Positions 9,304 through 39,759 of a DNA stretch of 39,759 nucleotides are shown in pieces (position 1 is the stretch's first letter; the number at the start of each line of letters is the position of its first letter). Both the position numbers and the translations under genes were made by a program. Source of the stretch: Candidatus Gastranaerophilales bacterium (GTDB lineage: Bacteria; Cyanobacteriota; Vampirovibrionia; Gastranaerophilales; Gastranaerophilaceae); assembly GCA_944323435.1 (NCBI GenBank), contig CALUSN010000002.1:1-39759 (forward strand), in the 5' to 3' direction. The notes beneath the pieces are model-generated. The model did no database searches. It was not told the origin of the DNA and was given only the letters and a program-made list of their open reading frames with translations.

Positions 9304-9722
9304 AATAGATTATTCATTACCTGTAATTTTTAACACAATTATAACCGGAGAAGTTTAACGACACGGACTTGTATTTTTACATTGAGGATAACAGGTAGTT
9401 TTAATACAATTCCGGTCTTTCTACCAATGTCATCCGACCCCATGTCTACGTACGCAGTACTTTACATTTACCCCCTTTTACAATAAGCGGAGTAGTTTAA
9501 CAACGCTATCTCGTAATCAGACATTGAGGATGACTGTTAGTTCAAATACAATTCCGGTCTTTCTACTAATGTCATCCGACCCCATGTCTACGTACGTAGT
9601 ACTTTACATTTACCCCCTTTTACAATAAGCGGAGTAGTTTAACGTCAAACCTACTCTTTACATTTACCCCCTTTTGTCATAAACTTGAAGGGTTAAAAGA
9701 CTTTAATGAGGAGATTTATAAT
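9304..9722. other. Intergenic region holding a 142-bp tandem repeat
   Basis: No gene is visible. Most of the space is a tandem repeat (9340-9665). The final ~55 bases contain the gpmI leader with GAGGAG at 9708-9713. Confidence 0.75.
9340..9665. repeat. Tandem repeat, 142-bp period, 2.3 copies
   Basis: Unit 1 is 9340-9481, unit 2 is 9482-9623 and a partial third begins at 9624. The two full units share long identical blocks (for example ATACAATTCCGGTCTTTCTA and TTTACATTTACCCCCTTTTA) and differ mostly near the GTTTAAC end. Each full unit carries a CTACGTACG-type palindrome (perfect CTACGTACGTAG at 9588-9599). Read in reverse complement, each contains GGGGGTAAATG, a constant 35-base gap after TAAAT, then ACATT, matching the unit at 61-111 and 34200-34251. 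Confidence 0.85.
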
Positions 9723-11261: not shown

Positions 11262-11500
11262 CGGGTGAGAGCGGGAATTACCCCTCACCCGCATTCGTAG
11301 CTTTCGCCTTCAGGCTCAAGCACGACTGCTCCCTCTCCCGCAAGGGGGCGAGGGGAATACTATAAGATATCATTGCAATGGATTATCCAAAACAGCCCGA
11401 AGCAATCTTAAACGAGGTTAACTCCTCACCAAAATTTCTAAGTTCGCTAAACGGCGCTCACTATGAAATTCTTCCTTCTCCCGCAAAGGACGGAGGGAAT
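11262..11500. repeat. Mosaic of hairpin repeats between gpmI and the SNF2 helicase
   Basis: Immediately after the gpmI stop, CGGGTGAG (11262-11269) pairs with CTCACCCG (11284-11291). A second hairpin of the type CCCTCTCCCGCAAGGGGGCGAGGG follows at ~11330-11355. The stretch ~11428-11490, with ATTTCTAAGTT and GAAATTCTTCC, is the diverged reverse complement of ~33934-33993. No long T-tract follows the hairpins, so they are not clear terminators. No gene is seen in this gap. Confidence 0.7.
11369..11416. repeat. Decayed fragment of the 130-bp TIR element
   Basis: TATCATTGCAATGG and CAGCCCGAAGCAATC followed by AAACGA match the left half of the 34251-34380 element, with the interior and right end lost or replaced. 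This appears to be a truncated third copy. Confidence 0.55.
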
Positions 11501-33663: not shown

Positions 33664-33716
33664 TTCACCCTCTCTTGTTATGTATTATCATATAATAAAA
33701 TAGGATTTTTGGCAAA

Positions 33717-33870
33717 GGGGGGGGGGAAATGTATTGGTTTGTAAGTGGAGACTACAAGCTTTGCTTTTAGTGGTAAATGAATTGGTCGATAAGTGGAGAC
33801 TACAGGAGCTTTGTCACTGCAGGGGTAAATGAATCGGTTGGTAAGTGGGGCTACGGAATTTGTGTTATCC
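33717..33870 (+). repeat. Tandem repeat, three diverged ~50-bp units
   Basis: Units start at the G-tract plus AAAT near 33727, at 33771 and at 33822. Each has (GGT)AAATG, then GTAAGTGGAGACTACA-like sequence and a CTTTG segment. The middle unit has exactly 35 bases between TAAAT and TCACTG, as in the dispersed copies. The first unit opens with a run of ten G (33717-33726). Confidence 0.75.
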
Positions 33871-33981
33871 CTCCCCCTCTCCAAAGGGGCGAAGAGAACC
33901 TACGCTACCTCTCCTTCCCCTCGCCCTCCTTGTGGGAGAGGGAAGAATTTCAAGTTGAGCTGGGGCGAAACTTAGAAATTC

Positions 33982-34125
33982 GGGTGAGGGGTTTAAATAA
34001 CAAAAAGTTGACCCCTCGCCCAATAACCGCGCTCACCTCCCAAGTTGGGGAGGTCGCAGTTGTGCGAACGCCAGTGAGCTACAAATGCGGGTGGGGATTA
34101 AATAACGTAAAGTCCACCCCCACCC
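33982..34125. repeat. Two related hairpin elements with a shared TTAAATAAC loop
   Basis: Copy one (33982-34021) is GGGTGAGGGG ... CCCCTCGCCC around TTTAAATAACAAAAAGTT; copy two (34089-34125) is GGGTGGGG ... CCACCCCCACCC around ATTAAATAACGTAAAGT. The stems differ but remain paired, showing compensatory change, while the loops are alike. This suggests a selected or mobile hairpin. Confidence 0.65.
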
Positions 34126-34199
34126 TAACCCTCCCCGCAGGAGAGGGAACGCGCGTTGTCGCTCGATTAGCGCATATCCCTCGCCCTCAAAAAATCACG

Positions 34200-34250
34200 T
34201 CATTGCGGGGGTAAATGATTTCAGATATGAAGTAAGCCTACAAGTCTGGC
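34200..34250 (+). repeat. Conserved-gap intergenic repeat unit
   Basis: TCATTGCG overlaps GGGGGTAAATG (34207-34217). There are 35 bases between TAAAT and the next TCATTGCGAGG (34252). It is in direct orientation with the unit at 61-111 and sits immediately left of a TIR element, as that one does. Confidence 0.65.
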
Positions 34251-34380
34251 GTCATTGCGAGGGAACAACCATTCAGCCCGAAGCAATCCCGAACGAATTT
34301 CACAATTAAAAACAGTAGGTTGTGTGAAACCCAACAATAACAATATGGATTGCCACGTCGCTTCCGCTCCTCGTAATGAC
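34251..34380 (+). repeat. MITE-like element, 130 bp, inverted copy of 111-237
   Basis: Ends are GTCATTGCGAGG and CCTCGTAATGAC (one mismatch in the 12-bp inverted repeat). Alignment with the reverse complement of 111-237 is nearly gap-free over the outer ~90 bases and more diverged in the middle. No coding capacity. Confidence 0.75.
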
Positions 34381-34705
34381 GCAAAACTATCCCCCCCCCC
34401 CCCCTACCCCCTTCAGGTACTTCCCCCGCAAGGGACACAACTGTCCATGATAAATTTAGGTATTAAAATTACAGACGTAATGTCTGTATAAAACCCCTCC
34501 CCGAAATCAAAGATTTCGACCCTCCCACATGGGGAGGGTATGCTGAACGCTAAGCGTGATGTTCCATTTGCCCTGTGTGGAGCAAGCCCCACACGATTAT
34601 AGTGGTCAGAGGTGAAAATGTATTTGACAGGTAATGAAACTTCGCAATAATTTTCAAGCATAACATTTTTGTGTATAATATAATAGGGTTTAAAGAAGGG
34701 GAAAT

Positions 34706-35393: not shown

Positions 35394-36674
35394 TTATTTT
35401 TTCTTTTGCACCCAGTTTTCAAGAACTCTTAACGGAGCTCTTGTTATTGCTAACGCCCATGCCGGAATATTTTTTGTAATTACACCGACAGCACCTACAT
35501 TAGCTCCTTCTTCTATTGTGACGGGAGCAACAAGAACTGAATTAGAACCGATTTTTACATTGTCTTTTATAATCGTTTTGCTTTTTACTTTTGTTAACGG
35601 ATTATAATTTGCGGTAATTGTGCCGGCTCCTATGTTTACATTTGAACCAATTTCGCTATCGCCTAAATAAGTCAAATGACAGGCATTTGTATGAGATTTT
35701 ATTGTGGTTTTTTTGACTTCAACAAAATTCCCTATCTTTACATAATCCTCAAGCACAACATCTCCTCTTAAGTGGGCAAAAGGACCTATTTTACAATGTT
35801 TGCCTATTTTATTTTTGCCATTTATATAACAACACGGATAAATTACTGTGTCAGTACCAATTTCAGTTTCTCCGCTAATCCATGTAGTTGAAGGATCAAC
35901 TATAGTTACCCCGTTTGACATGAAACGGGAAAGAGTCTGATTGTTCATTATTCTGACTGCTTCTGCAAGATTCTCTCTTGAATTAATACCGAAAATTTCC
36001 TTATTATCTGATAATGTGTACGCATTAACGGATAAATTATGCTCATTTCCCCATTTTACAATGTCTGTTAAGTAATATTCACCTTGAGCATTATTATTCT
36101 TCAATTCTGAAAAAGCCAAATTAACTTTTTCCCAATTAACGCAGTAAATTCCTGCATTAATTTCTTTAACAGCTTTTTGCTCAGGATTTGCATCCTTCTC
36201 TTCAACTATTGAATGTACAGAATCGTCAGGATTTCTGATAATTCGGCCGTAATTGGAAGGATTATCAAAGATCGCACTCATGACCGTTATATCCGAAGAT
36301 TTTTCACGGTGAAAATTGATAAATTTATTTAATGTATCTGAAGTTATTAAAGGTGTATCACCGCATAAGATAATAATATTTCCGTTAAATTTATTGAGAT
36401 ACGGAAGTACCATGCTTACAGCATGACCTGTACCAAGCTGCGGAGATTGCAAAACGCATTTTGTATTTTTGCAGTGATTATTATTTATATATTCCTCTAC
36501 CTGCTCAGCTTTATGCCCTACAATTACAAAATTTTCATCACACATTCCTGTATTGTCAACTGCTTCAATGACATAACCCAGCAAAGGTTTATCAAAAATT
36601 TCATGTAAAACTTTTGGTTTCTCTGATTTCATGCGGGTTCCCTTGCCTGCAGCTAAAATAATTGATTTAATCAT
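35394..36674 (-). CDS. glmU: Bifunctional UDP-N-acetylglucosamine pyrophosphorylase / glucosamine-1-phosphate acetyltransferase
   Basis: GlmU makes UDP-GlcNAc for peptidoglycan and outer-membrane lipids. The N-terminal uridyltransferase shows LAAGKGTRM and KPKVLHEI; GTGHAV, CGDTPL and the NAGIYC segment follow. The C-terminal left-handed beta-helix acetyltransferase has hexapeptide repeats and ACHLTYLGDSEIGSNVNIGA, with the catalytic His at 333. At 426 residues it is about 30 shorter than E. coli GlmU, and the distance from the His to the C-terminus (93) equals that of E. coli, so the shortening lies upstream of the acetyltransferase site. GAGAGGTG precedes the ATG. It is divergent from the flagellin gene. 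Confidence 0.95.
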   Translation of the reverse strand: MIKSIILAAGKGTRMKSEKPKVLHEIFDKPLLGYVIEAVDNTGMCDENFVIVGHKAEQVEEYINNNHCKNTKCVLQSPQLGTGHAVSMVLPYLNKFNGNIIILCGDTPLITSDTLNKFINFHREKSSDITVMSAIFDNPSNYGRIIRNPDDSVHSIVEEKDANPEQKAVKEINAGIYCVNWEKVNLAFSELKNNNAQGEYYLTDIVKWGNEHNLSVNAYTLSDNKEIFGINSRENLAEAVRIMNNQTLSRFMSNGVTIVDPSTTWISGETEIGTDTVIYPCCYINGKNKIGKHCKIGPFAHLRGDVVLEDYVKIGNFVEVKKTTIKSHTNACHLTYLGDSEIGSNVNIGAGTITANYNPLTKVKSKTIIKDNVKIGSNSVLVAPVTIEEGANVGAVGVITKNIPAWALAITRAPLRVLENWVQKKK

Positions 36675-36712: not shown

Positions 36713-36741
36713 TTGACAAAAAAATAAGCATGTTATATAAT
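36713..36741 (+). promoter_or_regulatory. Consensus sigma70-type promoter of the flagellin gene
   Basis: Perfect TTGACA (36713-36718), a 17-base spacer and perfect TATAAT (36736-36741). Most flagellin genes use a sigma28 promoter (TAAA-N15-GCCGATAA), which is not seen here. Confidence 0.8.
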
Positions 36742-36763
36742 CAATATATAAGGATATGTGAAT

Positions 36764-38440
36764 GTGGCATTGTCGTTAAATACTAATAATTTATGTAATA
36801 TTGTACAAAACAGCCTTACTGATTCTACTGCAGGGCTGAATATTGCAATAGAAAGATTGACAACCGGCTTTAAAATAAATCATGCAAAGGACAATGCTGC
36901 CGGCTACTCAATAGCGACAAAATATTCCAGCCAATTGACTTCTTATACAGTGGCTCAGGACAATACTGCTATGGGCATGGATTTAATAACAACTGCAACC
37001 GACAGTCTAAATCTTATAACATCACATTTACAGCGCATGCGCGATTTAGCGGAACAAGCATCTAACGGCACATATTCCTCAAACTCTTTAAAAGCAGTGC
37101 AGGCAGAATTTAATCAACGAATGAATGAGATTGACCGATTGATGGTTAATACTGAATATAACGGCGTTAAACTATTTAAAGAGTCAGGCAGCAGCTTTAT
37201 TAATGACGTTGAACCACTTTCAGCAAAAGAAGCGGAAAATGAAGGATATACCGTAATTACTTCTGCCGAGGATTTGCAAAAAATTAATGATAACTTAGGC
37301 GGAAAATACATTTTGATGAGCGATATTGATTTGTCAGGCGAAGTTTGGACATCTATCGGGAGTCTTTCAAATCCGTTTACAGGTGAAATAAATGGCAATG
37401 GCTTCATAATTAGTAATTTATACTTGGAGGATAACGCAAAAGATTATTACGGATTATTTGGCAGAACAGAAGGTGCAAAAATTACAAATTTAGGGATTGA
37501 AAATGCAAGCGTTTCCGGTAAAATGTGGGGCGGAATACTTGCAGGTTATGCATATAATACAGAAATATTAAACTGCTTTGCAACCGGGAGTGTTTCAGGG
37601 TATAGCGATGTAGGAGCCCTGGTCGGTGATAACATTCATAATTCATCTATTGACAGTTGTTACGCAATTGCGGATGTCACCGGAACAAGTTACCGCGTTG
37701 GTGGTCTTGTTGGTTATAATAACGATAACTCGTCAATAGATTTTAGTTTTGCCCAGAGCAGTGTTTCAGGGAATCTTAATGTTGGAGGTTTTGTAGGCGA
37801 AAATGTCTCCAGTACTGTTTCAAATTCTTTTTCAGAAGGTAATGCTTCAGGTAATTCACAAATTGGAGCTTTTACAGGATCAAATGACGGCGGTACAATA
37901 TCCTCAAGTTACTGGAATCAGGAAAAATCACCTTCTCTGCCGGGAATTGCCCACGGTACAAACGCCGGAGCAACAGGAGCAACTACCGCGGAAATCGAAG
38001 AGCAAAAAGTTGAAAACAATTTACCGGGATACAATATTATGCTTTCCGAGGAGGAAACAGAACTAACATTTCAGGTCGGCATATATAGTGCTGAGCCGTC
38101 TAAAATCACTATTGATACAGAGTTTAATCTCAGATTGTCTGCATTAAATGTATCAAATCAAAATTCTGCAAGAAAAGCTTTAGCAAAATTAGATAATATG
38201 CTGGCAATTGTGAGTGCAAAACAAACAGATTACGGGGCTGCGTACAACAGGCTGGAATCTGCACTAGAGACTATCGGGGTTAGTATAGATAATATTACAT
38301 CCTCCCGTTCAACACTTAGAGATGCTGATATTGCTGAAGTTTCAAGCGATTATATTAAAAATCAGATTTTGCAGCAGGCTTCCGCAACTTTGCTTGCAAC
38401 AGCGAATCAGACTCCGTCTATTGCGTTACAGCTGCTTTAA
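36764..38440 (+). CDS. fliC: Flagellin with a GLUG-repeat surface domain
   Basis: The protein (558 residues from GTG at 36764; AAGGA is nine bases upstream) begins MALSLNTNNLCNIVQNSL, the standard flagellin start; a GTG at 36758 is too close to the ribosome site. Residues ~1-138 form the D0/D1 N-terminal helices (NIAIERLTTGFKINHAKDNAAGYSIA, LQRMRDLAEQASNGTYS). The last ~115 are the C-terminal helices (ARKALAKLDNMLAIVS, LRDADIAEVSS, ILQQASATLLATANQ, ending ALQLL). The ~290 residues between carry GLUG-type repeats (GGILAGYA, VGALVGDN, VGGLVGYN, VGGFVGEN, IGAFTGSN), usually found in adhesins and IgA-protease-like proteins. The insert should form the outer face of the filament. It is transcribed alone and ends at a terminator. 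Confidence 0.93.
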   Translation: MALSLNTNNLCNIVQNSLTDSTAGLNIAIERLTTGFKINHAKDNAAGYSIATKYSSQLTSYTVAQDNTAMGMDLITTATDSLNLITSHLQRMRDLAEQASNGTYSSNSLKAVQAEFNQRMNEIDRLMVNTEYNGVKLFKESGSSFINDVEPLSAKEAENEGYTVITSAEDLQKINDNLGGKYILMSDIDLSGEVWTSIGSLSNPFTGEINGNGFIISNLYLEDNAKDYYGLFGRTEGAKITNLGIENASVSGKMWGGILAGYAYNTEILNCFATGSVSGYSDVGALVGDNIHNSSIDSCYAIADVTGTSYRVGGLVGYNNDNSSIDFSFAQSSVSGNLNVGGFVGENVSSTVSNSFSEGNASGNSQIGAFTGSNDGGTISSSYWNQEKSPSLPGIAHGTNAGATGATTAEIEEQKVENNLPGYNIMLSEEETELTFQVGIYSAEPSKITIDTEFNLRLSALNVSNQNSARKALAKLDNMLAIVSAKQTDYGAAYNRLESALETIGVSIDNITSSRSTLRDADIAEVSSDYIKNQILQQASATLLATANQTPSIALQLL

Positions 38441-38534
38441 TATATCCGGAATCTTTATATTAAAAAAACTTCACATATTATTTGCATTTTATTTATGTTT
38501 ATTTTAGGATTTAATCATACGCCGATTTTTTATG

Positions 38535-38560
38535 AAGAATGTGTTTAACACATTCTTTTT
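38535..38560 (+). terminator. Rho-independent terminator after flagellin
   Basis: AGAATGTG (38536-38543), loop TTTAA and CACATTCT (38549-38556) form a perfect eight-pair stem that runs into five or six T. It lies about 95 bases beyond the flagellin stop. Confidence 0.8.
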
Positions 38561-38659
38561 AAAAAGGTTAAAAATGGGGTAAAATTAAAGCGGTAAATTA
38601 CACTAGGTTACTCCAGCAAAATAAAATAGCATTGAAATAAGTTATAAAGGAAAGTCAAA

Positions 38660-38827
38660 ATGGGTATTAAAGGTAAAAATGACAGAATGGTAGTTTTAGC
38701 TTGTGAAGACTGCAAAGAAAGAAACTACACAACAGTTAAGAACAAAAAGAATACAAAGGACAGATTAGAATTAAGCAAATATTGTCCTACCTGCAAAAAA
38801 CATACAACACATAAGGAAACTAAATAG
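38660..38827 (+). CDS. rpmG: Ribosomal protein bL33, zinc-ribbon form
   Basis: The 55-residue reading frame encodes [20 protein letters not shown] and continues with [20 protein letters not shown]. It has two CxxC pairs (CEDC, CPTC), the zinc-binding (C+) type of L33, a structural protein of the large subunit. The start is supported by AAGGA (38647-38651) eight bases upstream. It heads the classic rpmG - tRNA-Trp - secE - nusG cluster; between it and the tRNA lies the heptamer hairpin. Confidence 0.96.
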
Positions 38828-38828
38828 A

Positions 38829-38894
38829 AGTGAACAGTGACTAGTGAATAGTGAGTAGAATTCTATTCACCATTCACTAGTCACTAATCACTAG
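38829..38894. repeat. Heptanucleotide repeats forming a 48-bp imperfect palindrome
   Basis: About four AGTGANN heptamers (AGTGAAC, AGTGACT, AGTGAAT, AGTGAGT) are followed around a central GAATTC (38858-38863) by their complements TTCACCA, TTCACTA, GTCACTA and ATCACTA. Arms 38837-38860 and 38861-38884 pair with about two mismatches. Short tandem heptamers of this kind (STRR) are known from filamentous cyanobacteria; no link is proven. Confidence 0.75.
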
Positions 38895-38898
38895 TTAA

Positions 38899-38971
38899 GC
38901 GTCCTTAGTTCAGTTGGTAGAACGTCGGTCTCCAAAACCGGATGTCGAGGGTTCGAGTCCTTCAGGGCGCG
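38899..38971 (+). tRNA. trnW: tRNA-Trp (CCA anticodon)
   Basis: The 73-base cloverleaf has acceptor GCGTCCT paired to AGGGCGC (38964-38970), D-arm GTTC/GAAC, anticodon arm TCGGT-CTCCAAA-ACCGG with anticodon CCA, and T-arm GAGGG-TTCGAGT-CCTTC. The discriminator base is G and the CCA end is not encoded. Its position between rpmG and secE is the usual place for this tRNA. Confidence 0.97.
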
Positions 38972-38996
38972 AATTATATGAGAATAGGTAATTAAA

Positions 38997-39197
38997 ATGA
39001 ACGACACTTTTGAAACTGCAAAGAAGAATATAGTTACATATTTTAAAGGCGTAAGAACTGAATGGGGCAAAATTACATGGCCTGAAAAAAATCAGGTTGT
39101 TGTAGAAACAGGTTTTGTTGTTGCAATTGTGTTTATATTCACTGTCTTTATTTATGTTGTGGATATTATTTTTAATGCATTGTTATCAAAGTTATAA
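38997..39197 (+). CDS. secE: Preprotein translocase subunit SecE
   Basis: SecE clamps SecY in the membrane channel that SecA powers. The 66-residue protein is the short one-helix form: a cytoplasmic amphipathic part with YFKGVRTEWGKITWPEKNQV (the conserved E-x-x-K-V/I-x-W-P segment) and one membrane helix (~40-60). The start follows AGG and eight bases. It is 26 bases after the tRNA and 17 bases before nusG, and is probably cotranscribed with nusG. Confidence 0.96.
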   Translation: MNDTFETAKKNIVTYFKGVRTEWGKITWPEKNQVVVETGFVVAIVFIFTVFIYVVDIIFNALLSKL

Positions 39198-39214
39198 TTT
39201 GAAGGGTAAAAATA

Positions 39215-39759
39215 ATGACTGAAAAAGATGAAAATATTATGAATGAAGGAACAGCGGAAGAAACTCAGGAAGCTGAAAGCAATAAGTCTTCTGACAAGAA
39301 GAACCAAAAACGCTGGTATATTGTTCACACTTATTCAGGTTACGAAAACAAAGTAAAGAGCAATCTTGAAAAACGTATTGAGTATATGAATATGGGAGAT
39401 AAGATTTTCCGTGTAGAAGTTCCGCAAAAAACTATTACCCAGATAAAAGGCGGAAGAAAGCAGGAAAAAGAAGAAAAGATTTTCCCCGGCTATGTGCTTG
39501 TTGAAATGATTATGGATGAAGACAGCTGGTATGTTGTACGCCATACTGCAGGTGTTACAAAATTTGTAGGCTCAGCTAAAAAACCGATTCCTGCAAAAGA
39601 CAGTGAAATTAAGAAAATTATTCACAGATCTACCGCTCAAACTCAAAAGGTTGAAATGGATGTTAAGGTTGGCGAAAAAGTCAGAATCATATCCGGACCG
39701 TTTGCAGAGTTTGTCGGTGATATTACTGAAGTTTACCCTGATAAGGCTAAACTCAGAGC
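39215..39759 (+). CDS. nusG: Transcription antitermination/elongation factor NusG (cut by window end)
   Basis: NusG holds RNA polymerase in a processive state and links it to Rho or ribosomes. The reading frame starts at 39215 after GAAGGG (39201-39206) and remains open for 181 codons to the window edge, with no stop. Residues ~1-32 are an acidic tail (MTEKDENIMNEGTAEETQEA...), then the NGN domain (KRWYIVHTYSGYENKVKSNL, FPGYVLVEM, SWYVVRHTAGVTKFVG) and the start of the KOW domain (VGEKVRIISGPFAEFVGDI). The acidic N-terminal extension is longer than in E. coli NusG but common in other phyla. Confidence 0.95.
   Translation, partial: MTEKDENIMNEGTAEETQEAESNKSSDKKNQKRWYIVHTYSGYENKVKSNLEKRIEYMNMGDKIFRVEVPQKTITQIKGGRKQEKEEKIFPGYVLVEMIMDEDSWYVVRHTAGVTKFVGSAKKPIPAKDSEIKKIIHRSTAQTQKVEMDVKVGEKVRIISGPFAEFVGDITEVYPDKAKLR

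Follow-up and report, generated by a model that had tools for sequence, protein, structure and literature searches.

A flagellin gene with a predicted GLUG-repeat beta-helix between conserved flagellin ends in a gut Gastranaerophilales genome

Domains inserted between the conserved ends of flagellins have been described before. The survey by Eckhard et al. 2017, which covered 26,587 flagellins, recorded 61 inserted domains, 17 of them labelled Peptidase_M26, and the same work characterised flagellinolysin, a metallopeptidase-containing flagellin (PMC5595980). Melainabacteria, the lineage considered here, were previously described as flagellated (PMC3787301). Insertions into flagellins, including those with Peptidase_M26 labels, are thus already known, and the GLUG-flagellins that we describe are a further variant of them. 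Our search of the open-access literature, outside which most subscription papers lie, returned nothing on GLUG-flagellins, on flagellin inserts of Melainabacteria or on giant FliD proteins.

We analysed a stretch of 39,759 nucleotides, hereafter the window, from the genome of an uncultured Gastranaerophilales bacterium (gut Melainabacteria). This genome is a fragmented MAG of 162 contigs, estimated to be 89% complete. The original prediction, made from the letters of the window, was of a flagellin whose outer domain is an adhesin-like GLUG-repeat region. The features of the locus are as follows.

35394-36674, minus strand: glmU-like gene, divergent neighbour (named from sequence; order shared by four orthologue loci)
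36713-36741, plus strand: sigma-70-type promoter, TTGACA at 36713-36718, 17-nt spacer, TATAAT at 36736-36741 (12 of 12 consensus positions)
36750-36754, plus strand: ribosome-binding site AAGGA (read from the sequence; conserved in orthologues)
36764-38440, plus strand: GLUG-flagellin gene, open reading frame of 558 aa with GTG start
36779-37186, plus strand: Flagellin_N helical region, N-terminal half of D0/D1 (PF00669, E 2e-30, residues 6-141)
37235-38041, plus strand: outer domain, predicted right-handed beta-helix, residues 158-426 (AlphaFold2 and structural matches)
37538-37912, plus strand: GLUG repeats, four significant and one weak at 37850-37912 (PF07581)
38183-38437, plus strand: Flagellin_C helical region, C-terminal half of D1/D0 (PF00700, E 3e-16, residues 474-558)
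38536-38560, plus strand: probable terminator, AGAATGTGT-TTA-ACACATTCT hairpin and T run (read from the sequence)
38660-39757, plus strand: rpmG, tRNA-Trp (38899-38971), secE and nusG (cut by the window end), downstream (named from sequence)

The open reading frame, its coordinates and its GTG start had all been called correctly. The start at 36764 is supported by the AAGGA spaced 9 nt upstream and by the non-ATG codons (TTG, GTG, GTG, TTG) found at the same place in four intact orthologues. The flagellin ends are intact, as claimed: Flagellin_N scored 106 bits (cut-off 26.6) and Flagellin_C 60 bits (cut-off 23), both above the curated Pfam cut-offs. Among the NCBIfam models, the top score was 195 bits for a FliC/FljB-type subfamily model with its own cut-off of 387, and the FlgL model gave 81 bits against a cut-off of 127. 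The insert matched the Pfam Glug family above its cut-off in four stretches (E 2.6e-12, 46.7 bits, cut-off 20.5). At least five repeats had been predicted; the genome search placed four units at or near the cut-off (37538-37597, 37598-37681, 37688-37774 and 37769-37843), but the fifth (37850-37912) was only marginal, with an E-value of 0.5.

The perfect TTGACA-N17-TATAAT promoter held up on inspection, the runner-up site in the region matching 10 of 12 consensus positions as against 12 of 12. All four intact orthologues share both hexamers, letter for letter, with the window gene, and the 16-17 nt spacers diverge. A simple sigma-28 pattern, from which the lineage's own consensus may differ, found no box within 300 bp upstream of the window gene; the pattern does match upstream of a different flagellin gene (L002) in this genome. 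The gene had also been credited with its own terminator. A hairpin of 9 bp at 38536-38556 is followed by T residues, and the same hairpin was recognised by eye in three orthologues, but it scored under the threshold of a terminator scan, so we regard it as a probable terminator. Elsewhere, the window contains a 64-bp near-palindrome between rpmG and tRNA-Trp (38829-38892) and, at 9341-9643, a sequence of about 161 bp that is repeated directly with 88% identity.

Orthologues of the window gene were found in five relatives, with an insert identity of 51-75%. In one of them (L044/L102) the reading frame shifts at a T8 run within the GLUG region. In comparison with the four intact orthologues, the N-domain shows 71-81% identity (dN 0.12-0.21) and the insert 51-75% (dN 0.18-0.44). 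In all domains dN lies far under dS, which is saturated between orthologues (mostly at least 1.6, or not computable), so that dN/dS serves as a rough sign of constraint only. In the four orthologue loci for which longer stretches were read (L099-L102), glmU and rpmG again flank the gene, and those loci that reach far enough also preserve the rpmG/tRNA-Trp/secE/nusG order. Since dN is under dS and both the locus and the promoter hexamers are conserved, the comparison supports a functioning, constrained gene with a housekeeping-type promoter. Along 38340-38960, which spans the 3' end of the gene, the hairpin, rpmG and the tRNA, the window is approximately 100% identical to L100 over some 600 bp, as against 65-80% elsewhere. 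This near-identity may stem from recent recombination or, since L100 ends there, from a contig end that is chimeric.

We modelled the window protein with AlphaFold2 from an alignment of 14 GLUG-flagellins. The mean pLDDT was 81, and the insert, a regular series of strands, was mostly above 90. Confidence was low at residues 1-9 and 547-558 and the pTM was 0.57, for which reasons the model gives no orientation of the helix on the filament. Residues 158-426 aligned with BACOVA_03286 (3n6z) at a Z-score of 32.9 and an rmsd of 2.2 over 260 residues with 25% identity, and with M26 IgA1 proteases at Z-scores of 24-29 (VIA-align); Foldseek concurred. The flanks aligned with many solved flagellar filament subunits at Z-scores of about 18-20, and the long match lists of both programs are filled by this flagellin part. 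The beta-solenoid proposed for the insert was thus recovered as a predicted right-handed beta-helix, closest to 3n6z, which would stand in for the D2/D3 outer domains of other flagellins. We also considered a protease function and rejected it, because the HExxH zinc-peptidase motif was found in none of 89 GLUG-flagellin stretches, a set that includes the window gene and in which some genes are represented more than once. The flagellinolysin model NF033876 scored 36 bits against the window protein, with a cut-off of 205.

Relatives of the insert occur in 45 of the 58 genomes of the genus. The flagellin-GLUG-flagellin architecture was present in at least 33 of the 58 among the loci read, and in 36 when copies that are frameshifted or cut by contig ends are included. 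Five further genera have GLUG-flagellins in full and a sixth in part, and a phylum-wide sample added one more genome, from another family of the same order. A tree built on the flagellin ends separates the genus's GLUG-flagellins from the plain flagellins; judged by sequence, they are a distinct paralogue class. A single GLUG-flagellin clade was not rejected (AU p 0.54), and we therefore do not claim that the insert was acquired independently several times. Flagellin_C genes number 5-21 per genome in the 11 genomes sampled. Five loci (L108, L117, L124, L132 and L142) at first sight placed GLUG-flagellins in Clostridia, a candidate that we rejected: the MAG from which they come, SRR11489792_bin.93, is titled Clostridia, and its SecY is 70% identical to that of the window genome, so it appears to be a relative under a wrong title. 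One contig scan, judged on its best 80 loci, confirmed no GLUG-flagellin outside Gastranaerophilales.

The genome encodes the flagellar export genes on which a flagellar interpretation depends. FlhA, FlhB, FliR and FliP form one cluster on contig 5, and FliF (MS-ring), rod/hook-type proteins and three FliD are encoded as well. Flagellin_N matched eight genes: five plain flagellins of 296-378 aa, the window gene, a second GLUG-type flagellin of 1113 aa on contig 6, and one that is cut by a contig end. The picture of a lone peculiar gene therefore did not survive, with at least two GLUG-type flagellins beside the five plain ones in this genome and dozens across the order. For the same reason, the suggestion of a filament repurposed for attachment is unsupported as stated, and it is more likely that the protein is a decorated subunit, minor or alternative, of an otherwise ordinary flagellum.

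We consider it fairly probable that the window gene encodes an exported flagellin that is built into the filament and displays its GLUG beta-helix there, likely for surface interaction. The flagellar secretion system would export the protein, and the conserved D0/D1 coils would insert into the filament, from whose surface the right-handed helix would project as the sole outer domain. It would probably be a minor or alternative subunit mixed with the plain flagellins. With a promoter of housekeeping type, its supply would not depend on a sigma-28 flagellar cascade, and a constitutively expressed protein could be ready when export switches to late substrates. A position near the filament base is possible, since the protein would already have been made at that switch. 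Its likely job would be binding, with mucus, food particles, host cells or other microbes as candidate targets. Helices of the GLUG type are found in proteases as well as in surface proteins; the adhesive role is putative, and the literature that we found demonstrates no ligand for a GLUG domain.

Some relatives carry poly-G/C tracts in GLUG-flagellin genes. In BRZ_GG__bin60 (G147) we counted 15 G/C tracts of at least 9 nt, of which 12 lie directly behind Flagellin_N, at the boundary of the outer domain; all tract lengths given derive from short-read MAG consensus. Four of the 12 junction copies are in frame; six have a shifted frame, each half being open apart from that; of the remaining two, left unjudged, one is at a contig end and one lacks GLUG in the fetched stretch. 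One extra copy with a G8 tract is out of frame. The tract loci of this genome are:

L123, L131, L140, L141, L144, L145, L169, L173, L240, L243, L246: flagellin/GLUG junction with tracts of 8-13 nt

Frames shifted at a junction C tract were also found in G119 (L135), in BRZ_KF__bin5 (L147) and in L088 (C7). Such junction tracts bear the signature of slipped-strand phase variation. Switching of this kind was rejected for the window gene, in which G and C runs all stay below 7 nt and A and T runs below 9 nt. The G/C runs of at least 9 that we read in the window genome lie in interspersed repeats or elsewhere, none in a GLUG-flagellin. Interspersed repeats occupy 50-584, 11280-11499 and 33716-34390 of the window, one copy matching contig 46 with 95.6% identity over 518 bp, and the associated G/C runs of at least 10 are at 374-384, 33717-33726 and 34391-34404.

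The tracts bear on a different reading of the outer domain, namely that it serves variation instead of adhesion, the exposed face of the filament changing to escape phages or antibodies so that diversity and switching are themselves the function. The many paralogues, as seen in the 5-21 Flagellin_C genes, and the coexistence of in-frame and frameshifted copies at the junction tracts of relatives fit this reading. The window gene itself, however, has no tract, and comparison with orthologues shows purifying constraint on its insert, which makes this explanation rather unlikely for the window gene. We prefer surface binding because the helix is conserved in orthologues and is common to cap proteins, described below; evasion through variation is the chief alternative and may apply to those paralogues that are phase-variable.

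The GLUG module is not confined to flagellins. An open reading frame starting at 2824 on contig 158 of the window genome (L033/L175) encodes a 6137-aa protein with GLUG and other repeats, whose ends match FliD_N (E 1e-15) and FliD_C (E 6e-36). This cap-type protein is more than ten times the usual size of FliD, and the genome also encodes a FliD of normal size, 590 aa, and one of 1927 aa. Comparable giants of 6148, 4640, 4412, 4155 and 2989 aa were found in relatives; two further ones, of 8905 and 11061 aa, have an N terminus that differs by eye, and the larger of them has a FliD_C match above the cut-off. On contig 24 (L032, 172-3207), a 1012-aa protein with a coiled-coil-like start carries the same GLUG module as the window flagellin and had no Pfam match at the threshold used. 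Relatives of this family of about 1,000 aa occur in many genus-mates (L057, L060, L061, L065, L067 and L068). From the presence of GLUG in flagellins, giant FliD proteins and this family, we conclude on sequence grounds that filament subunits, cap proteins and further proteins of these genomes have a single module in common as decoration. We put forward, tentatively, the idea that in gut Melainabacteria a dedicated class of GLUG-flagellins along the filament, with individual subunits switched on and off by poly-G/C slippage where flagellin and GLUG parts meet, together with giant FliD proteins (3,000-11,000 residues) that bear the same modules at the tip, could form a combinatorial, switchable display.

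The distribution of the module also bears on a purely structural role, in which the GLUG domain would thicken, stiffen or sheathe the filament as other D2/D3 domains can and bind no ligand. Outer domains of flagellins can modulate filament mechanics, and this general knowledge, together with the compact solenoid predicted for the insert, would accord with such a role. The same module, however, is found in FliD caps and in the non-flagellin family of about 1,000 aa, where filament stiffness is irrelevant, and we judge a structural role on its own to be unlikely, slightly more so than variation.

It is also conceivable that the protein is a secreted surface protein and no filament subunit, its flagellin ends acting as an export signal for the flagellar apparatus or for a second one that is type III-like. 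The promoter is seemingly uncoupled from flagellar regulation, and the genome contains a second full FlhA-like protein (L037, contig 88, 4703-7723), which adjoins a FliH-like protein, and a second FliF-like match on contig 47, as would suit this explanation. Both ends of the window protein nevertheless have the full D0/D1 length, including the C-terminal polymerisation region, which would be superfluous for an export signal alone, and we consider secretion without assembly improbable. The second FlhA-like and FliF-like proteins may themselves belong to a second flagellar or type III-like system. A 496-aa protein on contig 62 (L036, 3787-5274) has the C-terminal part of FHIPEP (FlhA) only and adjoins a Spore_III_AA/R3H-type ATPase protein. 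Finally, that the window gene is a decaying or unexpressed copy is very hard to believe, since against the one frameshifted orthologue stand an open frame, a promoter and a locus conserved across species and a dN far under dS everywhere.

If the GLUG helix is indeed displayed on the filament for surface interaction, a common and almost uncultured gut lineage would have flagella with an ordered beta-helix surface resembling IgA1 proteases, and its filament subunits and cap proteins would carry the same decoration. The GLUG-flagellin class would also give a concrete reason for the up to about 20 flagellin genes per genome, and flagellar phase variation encoded in the flagellin gene itself would become directly testable.

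The tracts of the relatives resemble the poly-G contingency loci of Campylobacter (PhasomeIt, PMC6321876), which likewise have long G/C tracts within reading frames and on/off states. In the relatives, unlike in Campylobacter, the tract lies inside the flagellin gene itself, at the boundary of the displayed domain; the window gene is without one. Outside flagellins, BACOVA_03286 (3n6z) and the M26 IgA1 proteases (6xja, 7uvk) share the fold of the insert at 24-26% identity and Z-scores of 24-33, but they are non-flagellins, and the proteases contain a zinc peptidase domain. Because M26 IgA1 proteases contain a similar beta-helix, some of the 17 Peptidase_M26 flagellins in the survey (PMC5595980), whose main text names neither the organisms nor the matched part of M26, may by analogy be GLUG-flagellins; the window flagellin has the helix without the catalytic part, and the class suggests that flagellins labelled "M26 peptidase" include non-enzymatic ones. 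With flagellinolysin (PMC5595980), the window flagellin shares a foreign domain between intact flagellin ends, which in the window flagellin would likewise be displayed on the filament surface, and the presence of a plain flagellin beside it. The inserted domain of flagellinolysin, however, is a gluzincin peptidase, whereas that of the window flagellin is a GLUG beta-helix lacking HExxH, and the expansion of GLUG-flagellins, unlike flagellinolysin, was found in one order only within the searches made. Flagellins whose outer domains are large and variable (Hu and Reeves-type survey 2020, PMC7018530) likewise combine conserved ends with a variable middle; in contrast to these, the middle of the window flagellin is an identifiable repeat solenoid, which recurs in FliD caps and in further proteins of these genomes.
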